Shown here one piece after another: positions 26,589 to 30,046 of a stretch of 64,000 bases of DNA. The notes below the pieces were generated by a model. That model searched no databases and was not told the DNA's origin. It saw nothing but the letters and a program-made list of their open reading frames with translations. Source of the DNA: Streptomyces poriferorum (lineage in GTDB: Bacteria; Actinomycetota; Actinomycetes; Streptomycetales; Streptomycetaceae); NCBI RefSeq assembly GCF_019399235.1, contig NZ_JAELVH010000005.1, forward strand, positions 62,001-126,000. Direction: 5' to 3'. Position numbers and translations under genes: made by a program. Positions within the stretch are counted from its first letter, which is position 1; every line of letters begins with the position of its first letter.

Positions 26589-27269
26589 TCAGCCGACCTC
26601 CGCACCCAGCAGCTCCCGGAACGACTCGGCCCCCGCCGGCGTCACCTTCACCGCCCGCCCTGAGCCGATCCGCCGTACCCACTGCCGCTCCAGCGACGTG
26701 GCGCACAGGGCCGCTCCCACCGCTCCGGCCAGATGCGACCGGCGTTCCGTCCAGTCCAGGCAGCTCCGCACCAAGGGCCGACGCGCACCCGCGGGGTGCC
26801 GGTAGCCCAGCGCGTCCGCCAGCCAGTCCCGGCCCGCCGGGGTGACGGACAGCCCCGCGTCCTCGGAGACCAGGCCCCGGGAGATCATGGCATCGGCCAG
26901 GGTCACACCCAGTTCACCGGCCAGATGGTCGTAGCAGGTCCGGGCTCGCGCCTCGGCACCCGCCCGGCCGGACCGGGGCAGGTTCCGGGGGCGGGAGGAA
27001 GCGGCGGGGGCGTACGAGGCAACGGCCTCGATCAGGGCGGCCGCCTCCGGGCCCGCCAGCCGCACATAGCGGTGCCGGCCCTGCCGTTCCTCGGCCAGCA
27101 GGCCGCCCTCGATCAGGCGGGACAACTGCTCGCTCGCCGTGGACGCGCTGACCCCGGCGCTCCGTGCGAGCTCGCCCGCGGTCCAGGCCCGGCCGTCGAG
27201 CAGGGCCTGGCAGAAGGTGGCCCGGGTGCGGTCGGCGAGCAGGGACGCGGTCTCGGCGATTGAGGACAT
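26589..27269 (-). CDS. ArsR-type winged-helix regulator
   Basis: The 226-residue protein has an N-terminal ArsR/winged-helix domain (ETASLLADRTRATFCQALLD, then AGELARSAGVSASTASEQLS and LIEGGLLAEERQGRHRYVRL). The C-terminal domain of about 120 residues is found in larger ArsR-like repressors and contains two cysteines. It is divergent from the P450-PEP mutase fusion gene. A perfect 15+15 palindrome sits between the two starts, so it most likely represses both itself and that gene. Confidence 0.88.
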   Translation of the reverse strand: MSSIAETASLLADRTRATFCQALLDGRAWTAGELARSAGVSASTASEQLSRLIEGGLLAEERQGRHRYVRLAGPEAAALIEAVASYAPAASSRPRNLPRSGRAGAEARARTCYDHLAGELGVTLADAMISRGLVSEDAGLSVTPAGRDWLADALGYRHPAGARRPLVRSCLDWTERRSHLAGAVGAALCATSLERQWVRRIGSGRAVKVTPAGAESFRELLGAEVG

Positions 27270-27319: not shown

Positions 27320-27334
27320 CCTACCTTCGGAACC

Positions 27335-29191
27335 ATGACGCACACGACGCACGAGTTCGATCGCTTCGAGGACGTACGGGCGGCCCTTGCCGATCCGGCC
27401 CTCGTCCCGGAGCGGCCGGCCGCGGCAGACGGCCCGCCCGGGGCGAGTGTCGCCTGGCTGCGCGCCACAGTGGCCCGGTTCAGCCACGGAGAGCCACACC
27501 GGCGACGGCGCGCCCTGGTCGAGGCCGAGCTGGCCCGTCTCGCTCCGGAGTCGCTGCGACAGGCGGCAGCCGTGGTGCCCGGCGAAGACATCCGGTTCAC
27601 GGTGGTGCGTACGCTTGCCGCCGCCCTGGGGATGCCGCGGCCCGCGGCCGTGGCGGAGGCCGTGATCGCGGTGGCCGGGGTCTACTTCGGCGGCGAGGAC
27701 GCAGCCGCCGACGAGGCGGTGGCGAGGCTGGTGAGGTGGCCGGCGGCGCCCACAGAGGTCGGACCGGGCTCCACAGAGGACGGACCTGGTTCCACTCAGG
27801 TGGGGCCTGGTTCCACGCAGGTCGGACCTGGTTCCCCTCAGGTCGGGCCTGGCTGCACGTCGACAGAGGTCGGACCGGGCTCCACAGAGGTCGGGCCCGG
27901 CTGCACGTCGGCCGAGCCTGTGTCCACTCAGGACGGTCCGGGCTCCACGCAGCTCGCACCTGGCTGCCCGTCGCTCGAGCTTGTGTCCACGCAGGTCGTA
28001 CCTGGCACTCCGTCGGCCGGATCCGAGCCCACGGCCGAACCGGTGCCTGTCCCGTTCGACGCCGCTCCGGAGTCCGCGGCCGGTCGCATCGGTCTGCTGG
28101 TCCAGGCGTGCGAGGCGACGGCCGCGCTCGTCGAAACCGCAGCCGGCGACGAGCGGCTTCCGCTGTCCCGGGTCCTGCGGGAGCGGCCGCCCGTACGGAC
28201 CATGCGTCGCGTCGCCGCCGGAGCCACCTGTGTCGCGGGCCGGGAGATCGCCGAGGGCGACGTGGTGCTCCTCGACCTGGCGGCGGCCAACCGCGCGCAT
28301 CCGGTGCCTCTCACCTTCGGCGCCCCGCCCCGCATCTGCCCGGGCAGGGCCCACGCCCTCGCGCTGGCCGACGGACTGCTCCGGCGCCCGCTCACCCCGT
28401 TCGCCCGCCTGCACCGTCGGGCGCACCCACTGCTGCTGCCCAACGCCTGGGACTACGCCTCCGCCGCCGCTCTGGCGGAACAGGGCTTCGCCGCCGTCGG
28501 CACCACCAGCCTGGGTGTCGCCGCTTCGGCCGGTCTGCCGGACGGGGCGGCCGCGACGGCCGAGGCGACCATGAGCCTGGCCCGTCGCCTCGGAAGGGGC
28601 CGATTCCTGTTCACCGTCGATGCCGAAGGCGGGTTCAGCGACGACGTGGCGGAAGTGGCCGCACTGGCACGGGCCCTGTACGAGGCGGGCGCGGCCGGCA
28701 TCAACCTGGAGGACGGCCGCCCCGACGGCACACTCGCGCCGATGGAGTTGCACGCGGCGAAGATCGCCGCCGTCAAACAGGTGGCACCCGCGCTGTTCAT
28801 CAACGCGCGTACCGACACCCACTGGGCGTCCAGCCACGAGGACGAGACCGCGACGCGCCTGGCCCTCTACGAACAGTTCGGCGCCGACGGGGTGTTCGTA
28901 CCCGGGCTGTCGGATCCGGCCGCGATCGCCGAGCTGATATCGGCGCTCGTCGTACCGTTGAACATCCTGTACGCCCCGGGCGGGCCCACGCTTGCCGAAC
29001 TGGCCTCGCTGGGCGTGCGCAGGGTCAGTCTCGGCTCGCTGCTCTACCGCAGGGCACTGGCGGCGGCCGTCACCGCGGCGACCGACATCCGGGACGGTCG
29101 GCCGACGGATCCGGCTGCCCCGTCCTACGCCGAGGTCCAGGCACTGGCGTACGCCCGGCAGGACCGGGACCCCGCGGCGGCGCCTGAGTGA
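27335..29191 (+). CDS. Cytochrome P450-like / isocitrate lyase-PEP mutase fusion protein
   Basis: The 618-residue protein has three parts. Residues 1-137 and about 240-357 are a shortened cytochrome P450: the I-helix LLVQACEATAALV, a K-helix-like RPPVRTMRRV, and the haem-ligand loop LTFGAPPRICPGRAHALALA. The meander before the haem loop is about 15-20 residues short. Residues 140-227 are a repetitive Ser/Thr-Gln-Val-Gly-Pro-Gly insert. Residues about 360-600 are an isocitrate lyase/PEP-mutase TIM barrel (LPNAWD, GTTSLGVAASAG, DAEGGF, INLEDG, INARTD) without the isocitrate lyase KKCG motif. ATG 27335 is preferred because the ArsR palindrome lies upstream. It is probably ArsR-repressed. Whether the P450 part binds haem is uncertain. 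Confidence 0.82.
   Translation: MTHTTHEFDRFEDVRAALADPALVPERPAAADGPPGASVAWLRATVARFSHGEPHRRRRALVEAELARLAPESLRQAAAVVPGEDIRFTVVRTLAAALGMPRPAAVAEAVIAVAGVYFGGEDAAADEAVARLVRWPAAPTEVGPGSTEDGPGSTQVGPGSTQVGPGSPQVGPGCTSTEVGPGSTEVGPGCTSAEPVSTQDGPGSTQLAPGCPSLELVSTQVVPGTPSAGSEPTAEPVPVPFDAAPESAAGRIGLLVQACEATAALVETAAGDERLPLSRVLRERPPVRTMRRVAAGATCVAGREIAEGDVVLLDLAAANRAHPVPLTFGAPPRICPGRAHALALADGLLRRPLTPFARLHRRAHPLLLPNAWDYASAAALAEQGFAAVGTTSLGVAASAGLPDGAAATAEATMSLARRLGRGRFLFTVDAEGGFSDDVAEVAALARALYEAGAAGINLEDGRPDGTLAPMELHAAKIAAVKQVAPALFINARTDTHWASSHEDETATRLALYEQFGADGVFVPGLSDPAAIAELISALVVPLNILYAPGGPTLAELASLGVRRVSLGSLLYRRALAAAVTAATDIRDGRPTDPAAPSYAEVQALAYARQDRDPAAAPE
27752..28015 (+). repeat. 21-bp minisatellite inside the P450-like domain
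   Basis: About twelve in-frame 21-bp units encode heptads such as TEVGPGS, TQVGPGS, TQDGPGS and TQLAPGC. Units near the 5' end are almost identical, and later ones diverge (AEPVS, LELVS), as in an array growing at one side. It interrupts the P450 before the I-helix. Confidence 0.93.
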
Positions 29192-30046
29192 CCTGCGCGT
29201 TTTCCACTGCTGGTGGTGTTCCAGCCGGCCGAGGAACTGGCCGTCGGTGCCCGGGGCATGGTGGACGACGGGCTATTCGAACGCTTTCCCAAGCCGGACA
29301 TCGTCCTGGGCCAGCACGTCGGACCGCTTCCCGCCGGATTCATCGGTCACGGCAACGGGCCGGTGATGGCGGCCGCCGACTCGGTGAACATCACCCTCCA
29401 CGGCCGGGGCGGCCACGGGTCCAGGCCGGAAGCGTCCATCGATCCCGTGCTCATGGCGGCGAACGTGGTCACCCGGCTCCAGGGCATCGTCGCCCGCGAG
29501 GTACCGCCGGCGGAGACGGCCGTGGTGACGGTGGGGCGCCTGAAGGCCGGTACGAAGGAAAACATCATCCCGGAATCCGCCGAGCTGGGCGTCAACATCC
29601 GCGCTTTCACGCCTGCCGTACGCGACCTGGTCCGCAGCGCGGTGGAGCGCATCGTGACGGGGGAGTCGCGGACGAGCGGCGCGCCGAAGCCGCCGGACTT
29701 CACCTGGTTCGCCTCCGCCCCCGCGCTCGTCAGCGAGCCGGAGGCCACGAAGACGACGGTGGCGGCGTTCTCCGAGCACTTCGGCGCCCAGCGGCTGCTG
29801 CCGATGCCGCAGGTGAACGCGAGCGAGGACGTGGGTGTGTTCGGTGAGGCGCTCGGCGTGCCCACGGTGTTCTGGTTCTGGGGCGGGCTGGAGGCGGAAT
29901 CGACGAGCGCGGCGTTCACCGAGGGACGCGTGGACGAGCTGCCGAGCAACCACTCGGCAGCTTTCGCCCCCGTCGTCGAGCCGACACTGAGCACCGGCGT
30001 GGAAGCGCTGGTCGTCGCCGCGTTGACCTGGCTCGGCAAGGTGTGA
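29192..30046 (+). pseudogene. M20 family amidohydrolase, N-terminal third missing
   Basis: The sequence opens directly after the stop of the fusion gene, in the same frame, with FPLLVVFQPAEE. This is the middle of an M20/amidohydrolase (normally about residue 120-140). The metal ligands in FQPAEE and the QHVGPLP histidine, the dimerisation domain (GRGGHGSRPEASIDP) and the C-terminal NHSAAFAP histidine are present. The N-terminal H-x-C-G-H-D motif and its strand are absent. A GTG at 29213 could give a 277-residue product, but it could not form the dinuclear metal site. The junction near 29195 looks like a deletion breakpoint. Confidence 0.88.

Follow-up and report, generated by a model that had tools for sequence, protein, structure and literature searches.

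A fused gene of Streptomyces poriferorum joins a miniaturised P450-fold domain to a PEP-mutase-type barrel

A 64,000-nt stretch of contig NZ_JAELVH010000005.1 from Streptomyces poriferorum (GCF_019399235.1), hereafter the window, whose positions supply the coordinates given here, carries an open reading frame that runs from ATG to stop over 618 residues without internal stops and joins a P450-like N-terminal half to a C-terminal barrel of the phosphoenolpyruvate (PEP) mutase/isocitrate lyase superfamily (Table 1). A sequence-only reading of this DNA had proposed a single frame composed of a shortened cytochrome P450 with the haem loop FGAPPRICPGR, a heptad repeat inserted in the P450 before the I-helix and a complete PEP-mutase domain, flanked by an ArsR gene with a perfect operator. 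These elements are borne out: the frame is open, the haem loop can be read in the sequence with its Cys335, an array of period 21 bp spans approximately residues 139-224 ahead of the I-helix, residues 356-585 match PF13714 (PEP_mutase) with 226.6 bits against a cut-off of 31.5, and the ArsR-type protein matches HTH_20 next to a palindrome, the putative operator, with perfect 15-bp arms. The designation as a cytochrome P450 stands in part, as the fold and the haem contacts are kept but the ExxR motif, the O2-activation pair and the lid have been lost. The AlphaFold model of the whole protein has a predicted local distance difference test score (pLDDT) of 81.3 and a predicted template modelling score (pTM) of 0.79.

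Table 1. Features of the fused gene and its upstream region, in window positions.
Feature	Position	Strand	Basis
Fused open reading frame: mini-P450 domain, repeat linker, PEP-mutase/isocitrate-lyase barrel	27335..29191	+	reading frame, Pfam
Mini-P450 N-terminal part, residues 1-135, with C-helix motif RFSHGEPHRRRR (R48, F49, H55, R59)	27335..27739	+	alignment, AlphaFold
C-helix HxxxR, H55 to R59	27497..27511	+	family: H 59/60, R 59/60
Tandem repeat of 21-bp units (heptad T/S-E/Q-x-G-P-G-S) forming a disordered linker	27750..28006	+	Tandem Repeats Finder, pLDDT
Mini-P450 C-terminal part, residues 241-350, comprising the I-helix (QACEAT), a K-helix that lacks ExxR, the haem loop and the L-helix	28055..28384	+	alignment, AlphaFold
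K-helix R279-V-L-R282 where ExxR is expected	28169..28180	+	alignment with ExxR-bearing relatives
Haem loop FGAPPRICPGR, Cys335 at 28337-28339	28316..28348	+	sequence; Cys in 60/60
Cysteine-free barrel of the PEP-mutase/isocitrate-lyase superfamily (residues 356-606) with the conserved acidic and NARTD residues in place	28400..29152	+	Pfam, structure match, alignment
Perfect palindrome GCTGCGACGGTTCGG-N6-CCGAACCGTCGCAGC, putative ArsR operator, core TTCGG-N6-CCGAA	27284..27319	.	15-bp perfect arms around 6 bp
TACCTT, -10-like element 7 nt upstream of ATG, predicted leaderless promoter	27322..27327	+	TANNNT conservation
ArsR/SmtB-type repressor, 226 aa, divergent	26589..27269	-	Pfam HTH_20

In a Pfam scan of the full window protein the P450 family PF00067 was not matched, and the P450 half alone gave a weak NCBIfam match (TIGR04515, E 1.8e-7, 30.9 bits against a cut-off of 343). 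Several relatives match PF00067 above its cut-off, namely L046 (Sphaerisporangium, 4.6e-16), L051 (Actinacidiphila, 7.9e-13) and L029 (Allokutzneria), and L092 falls just below it. Compared with solved P450s, L046 matches CYP164A2 at 2.3e-18; it hits 314 distinct PDB sequences at E <=0.001, and the best 60 of these 314 are all P450s. The predicted structure of a close relative recovers the P450 fold: the L008 mini-P450 domain, 76% identical to the P450 parts of the window protein, is modelled by AlphaFold with pLDDT 91.6 and pTM 0.89, and superposes on P450BioI (3ejb_F) with Z 21.7 and a root mean square deviation (rmsd) of 3.4 over 251 of 265 residues. This fold comparison uses the L008 domain model, the structure list of the window model being filled by barrel matches. 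The N-terminal half is a member of a family of miniaturised P450-fold domains (mini-P450s), of about 175-300 residues without inserts, in which the haem-contact residues are conserved.

Residues were counted over 60 mini-P450 sequences, whose pairwise identity has a median of 41%, leaving out L071 and L017, whose P450 half is mostly deleted; the roles assigned to the scored positions, such as that of HxxxR as haem-propionate ligands, are those of P450 biochemistry. The haem Cys, the loop Gly and the propionate-site Arg are present in 60/60, and the C-helix His, the C-helix Arg and an Arg or His two positions before the Cys in 59/60 each. The E of ExxR is found in only 15/60, with RVLR in its place in the window protein; Asp or Glu occupies the I-helix acid position in 32/60, the O2-activating Thr position holds Thr in three sequences and Ala in 53, and the F/G lid and the meander are often lost. 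Judged by these residues, the family appears to keep what holds the haem and to have largely lost what captures substrate and activates O2.

These P450 elements have been lost in graded steps. Six members retain ExxR with a full meander (L051, L058, which is the same gene as L093, L043, L044, L029 and L046), three retain ExxR with a shortened meander (L024, L025 and L056, the same as L092), and the fused sequences of the Streptomyces group and of Lentzea have neither. The spacing from C-helix Arg to haem Cys, with a median of 192 residues, is 131-133 in L048 and ten Lentzea sequences, and the whole Lentzea mini-P450 domain measures about 175 residues. A standalone mini-P450 at L134:4502-5710 has its N-terminal segment, with the motif VRFSNGD.HLRRR, doubled in tandem. 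A working oxygenase or peroxygenase, whose haem half would modify a substrate that the barrel then cleaves, would account for the haem-thiolate loop in 60/60, for the I-helix acid in 32/60 and for the placement of both active-site halves on one chain; we consider it improbable given an F/G lid region of only 8-18 residues in 20/27 fused sequences, the replacement of Thr by Ala in 53/60, the absence of the acid in about half and the loss of ExxR in most. Since the haem-holding residues are near-invariant and much of the oxygenase equipment is gone, a haem domain with a non-oxygenase task is suggested instead.

The model of the barrel half aligns with 4mg4 over 235 residues (Z 30.8, rmsd 1.8), and the residues N370, W372, D373, S392, D429, E431, N457, E459, D460, R492, D494 and N543 are conserved in 74-75 of 75 aligned sequences. 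Among the named activities in NCBIfam none scored above its own cut-off for the barrel: PEP mutase proper (TIGR02320) reached 20.3 bits against an equivalog cut-off of 319.55, and methylisocitrate lyase (TIGR02317), whose catalytic Cys is absent here, 53.6 bits against 354.4. Because residues 355-608 contain no cysteine, (methyl)isocitrate-lyase chemistry using a catalytic Cys is unlikely. On its residue pattern, the barrel is probably a Mg-dependent lyase, hydrolase or decarboxylase acting on a 2-oxo or 2-hydroxy acid.

The repeat array occupies the position of the missing F/G lid, and in the AlphaFold model of the window protein pLDDT falls below 50 at residues 146-238. While the corresponding segment is short in the 20 fused sequences mentioned above, other inserts occur there in L024 (31 residues), L005 (73) and L025 (75), and three of the 27 (L004, L022 and L021) gave no usable length. 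The window protein exceeds that of its nearest relative, L004, by 76 residues and most fused sequences are without an array, on which grounds the array was rejected as a functional core; it is a disordered linker outside the conserved design.

A pattern-based scan of the species genome collection returned 49 loci. One gene encodes both domains in Streptomyces, Planomonospora, Rhizohabitans, Lentzea and Microtetraspora, so that the search for the same domain order extends the fusion to four further genera and relatives do not always encode the two domains separately. Neighbouring genes, often in overlapping open frames, are found in Allokutzneria, Phytohabitans, Longispora, Microbispora, Sphaerisporangium, Allorhizocola and Phytomonospora. 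In a close sample of 61 genomes around that of the window, 37 of them of its genus including itself, the fused form is present in G000 and G021 and neighbouring genes in G036, G045 and G047. Each of the ten genomes sampled from genus g3 has mini-P450 matches without a linked barrel. In a class sample of 296 genomes including that of the window, with at most 8 candidates scored per genome, a mini-P450 match below 1e-24 was obtained in 11 genomes, and the next best candidates, ordinary-looking P450 frames, start at 6.4e-20.

The barrel tree comprises 83 sequences labelled as fused (31), adjacent (16) or alone (36), eight of the last being a distant barrel group. Three of these labels were corrected: the neighbour of L071, labelled adjacent, is an ordinary P450, and in L041 (at a contig edge) and L136, both labelled alone, a mini-P450 match adjoins the barrel. 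In L018 the barrel is spread over two frames. In this tree, whose bootstrap had not settled, the fused sequences form three separate sets, of which the Streptomyces group has 19 sequences, Lentzea 10 and Microtetraspora 2, with at least five label changes. This agrees with an older gene pair having fused repeatedly, splits being a possible alternative. The fusion is one state of this older gene pair, and neighbouring separate genes are also common.

The ratio of nonsynonymous to synonymous substitution rates (dN/dS) was computed over 17 pairs, separately for the two P450 parts and the barrel. It lies mostly at 0.14-0.45 in the P450 parts and at 0.16-0.40 in the barrel, and for the window protein and L004 it is 0.26 and 0.27 in the P450 parts and 0.35 in the barrel. 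The outliers are L010-L016 (1.1 in the C-terminal part, with a dS of only 0.067), L024-L025 (0.70, N-terminal part), L006-L012 (0.49, C-terminal part) and L039-L042 (0.05, C-terminal part). In L022, which has lost its C-helix and has a broken I-helix motif, the ratio rises to 0.62-0.81 in the C-terminal P450 part, with 0.33-0.38 in the remaining N-terminal part and 0.27-0.32 in the barrel; this pattern is one of relaxed constraint, and the window protein is without such a signal. L022:4001-5515, with a degenerate P450 half, and L017:4001-4939, in which it is mostly deleted, have intact barrels and constitute natural loss-of-P450 variants.

A one-off gene collision or pseudogene was rejected on the strength of the relatives and these ratios, and the earlier suggestion that the gene is not debris is supported by the fact that in most pairs both halves are under purifying selection and by the conservation of an operator core and a promoter-like element. 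A decaying P450 remnant, carried as a tolerated tail on a functional barrel, could still explain the graded loss of P450 elements, the broken or mostly deleted halves of L022 and L017 and the high ratios of L010-L016 and L024-L025. This reading is already disfavoured, and we hold it to be very improbable, because in most pairs selection on the P450 parts is purifying as in the barrel, the haem contacts are near-invariant in 60 sequences, the predicted fold is confident and standalone genes are kept in all ten sampled g3 genomes.

The window ArsR protein matches HTH_20 at 3.2e-10 (40.3 bits against a cut-off of 27) and scores 50.5, just under the cut-off of 55, with NF033788. As in the window, the mini-P450 has an ArsR-type gene as its neighbour in 31 of 62 other distinct loci with a mini-P450 match (64 fetched loci less two seen twice); this gene is divergent in 29 of the 31 and lies on the same strand in L029 and L132. 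In L019 and L020 an ArsR gene accompanies a barrel, and the mini-P450 is missing. A perfect copy of the core TTCGG-N6-CCGAA is present in 48/60 upstream regions, typically 24-25 nt ahead of the start, and in 1% of 3000 random segments drawn from these loci. The count of 48 is possibly slightly low as starts were assigned by hand and those of L030, L032, L085, L087, L088, L094 and L132 may be shifted. A TANNNT element lies within 20 nt of the start in 35 of 36 upstream regions picked because the operator was present (control 0.7%), a position that follows the predicted pattern of a leaderless promoter. Because this -10-like element lies between palindrome and ATG, the palindrome would fall outside the predicted leaderless mRNA, and a role as an RNA hairpin is less likely.

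The extended palindrome occurs in perfect form only once in the 8.9-Mb genome, with three more sites at one mismatch (one in the backwards control), and a regulon in the same genome was rejected on this basis. Close ArsR homologues elsewhere adjoin the same core beside other genes, which are flavin-reductase-like in L151 and L155 (by Pfam) and in L156 (by eye) and transporter-like in L154 (by eye), so the regulator family is wider than the mini-P450/barrel pair. The ArsR proteins of the window, L133, L154 and L156 have three cysteines in common (FC.ALLD, CYDHLAG and CLDWTERR.HLAG), which are candidate sensor residues. The second ArsR homologue of the window genome (L153, 57% identical) lacks a perfect core over the 5.5 kb retrieved, and this speaks against a strict pairing of the ArsR family with the core. 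On the 3' side of the fused gene, window 29213-30046 (forward strand) resembles by eye an amidohydrolase/M20-type peptidase whose N-terminal part is apparently absent.

With an open fused frame, conservation, selection on both halves, predicted folds, a residue pattern and a conserved palindrome as the observations, the explanation that we tentatively favour, at somewhat less than even confidence, is a two-domain protein derived from a fused gene pair, in which a haem-binding mini-P450 serves as a regulatory module of the attached lyase. The mini-P450 would bind haem and act on the lyase as a haem-based module for redox or gas sensing, and the ArsR protein would repress the fused gene from the palindrome. 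From its residues, we read the mini-P450 as no longer a classical monooxygenase, but as a domain that may regulate, sense for or stabilise the lyase; that mini-P450 and barrel are fused or neighbouring in many genera favours this explanation.

Several observations weigh against it. The fusion was seen in 2 of the 37 genomes sampled from the genus, and a close barrel stands alone in 13 (counted within one tree clade, with a flank of about 1.5 kb searched for most); L022 and L017, moreover, keep the barrel after breaking or losing the P450 half, and thus the barrel can do without the mini-P450. Ten genomes (L082-L091) that we tentatively take to be Catenulispora-like have a mini-P450 without a linked barrel, which means that the function of the mini-P450 does not hinge on the lyase. 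In 9/10 of them a ClpB-like gene lies directly downstream (as in L082:1899-5231; the two ClpB-like genes scanned both scored under the ClpB equivalog cut-off), and 8/10 have the perfect operator core. Finally, ExxR, which is widely considered to be required for haem incorporation, is gone from the window protein. A defence-system reading was rejected: PADLOC gave no match to the fused protein, to a standalone mini-P450 or to an HD protein, and its ArsR and ClpB-like matches look like generic helix-turn-helix and AAA hits.

The main rival, which we rate as clearly less probable, is that the mini-P450 carries no haem and serves its partner enzyme as a scaffold, by stabilising it or by allosteric activation, in the manner of EryCII and EryCIII. 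Passages of PMC3391682 describe EryCII as a P450 homologue that stabilises or activates the glycosyltransferase EryCIII, and that lacks the cysteine and the C helix. TIGR04515, the family of EryCII and DesVIII, is the best NCBIfam match for the window half, L046 (1.5e-28), L024 and L092, although not for L051 and L029, and an operon or fusion with a partner enzyme, together with a different, ClpB-like partner elsewhere, would suit a helper. Yet the scores lie far below the cut-off of 343 (30.9 for the window half, 100.3 for L046), and the cysteine, absent from EryCII-type proteins, and the C helix, absent from EryCII, are among the best-conserved features here.

Extended to the family, the sensing interpretation would make the mini-P450s a new class of haem-thiolate domains, with a minimum of about 175 residues, that abandoned oxygenation and became sensors or switches for partners. 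The partner would be a PEP-mutase-type lyase, to which the domain was apparently fused three times, in most lineages seen, and in the Catenulispora-like genomes a ClpB-type chaperone; we regard this interpretation as possible, if doubtful. Should haem be bound, the family would show how small a part of the P450 fold suffices for a haem-thiolate site and offer a natural minimal scaffold, and should it not be, it would provide a further case of P450 homologues turned helper proteins. If the sensor interpretation is true, these domains would rank with the smallest P450-fold haem proteins found in nature and would be, to our knowledge, the first P450-fold sensors.

The design had been called undescribed, and searches of the open-licence PMC literature, aimed at the fusion and at reduced or non-catalytic P450s, yielded no title or opening of an abstract describing this protein. 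Passages of Streptomyces P450 surveys (PMC6408508, PMC7369989) state that proteins without one of ExxR and CxG are excluded as pseudo-P450s or fragments; since such surveys set aside one-motif proteins, a conserved mini-P450 family may be missed and remain undescribed.

Compared with bacterial P450s (P450BioI, StaP, CYP119), the mini-P450s share the haem loop, the C-helix HxxxR, the I- and L-helices and, over 251/265 residues of the L008 domain, the fold, but they are without the F/G lid and many are without the meander, ExxR and the O2-activating pair; fusion to a lyase barrel and, in the smallest members, a C-helix Arg-Cys spacing of 131-133 residues further set them apart. The CYP157 family has been described as lacking ExxR, as does the window protein, but its members are full-length P450s. 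With EryCII and DesVIII the mini-P450s share the pairing of a reduced P450 homologue with a partner enzyme, whereas they keep the Cys and the C helix and lose the K-helix ExxR. The PF13714 members 4mg4, 4lsb, DFA0005 (2ze3) and PA4872 oxaloacetate decarboxylase (3b8i) have in common with the window protein the barrel, the conserved acids and the NARTD motif, and the window protein differs from them in its N-terminal mini-P450 and its cysteine-free barrel half.
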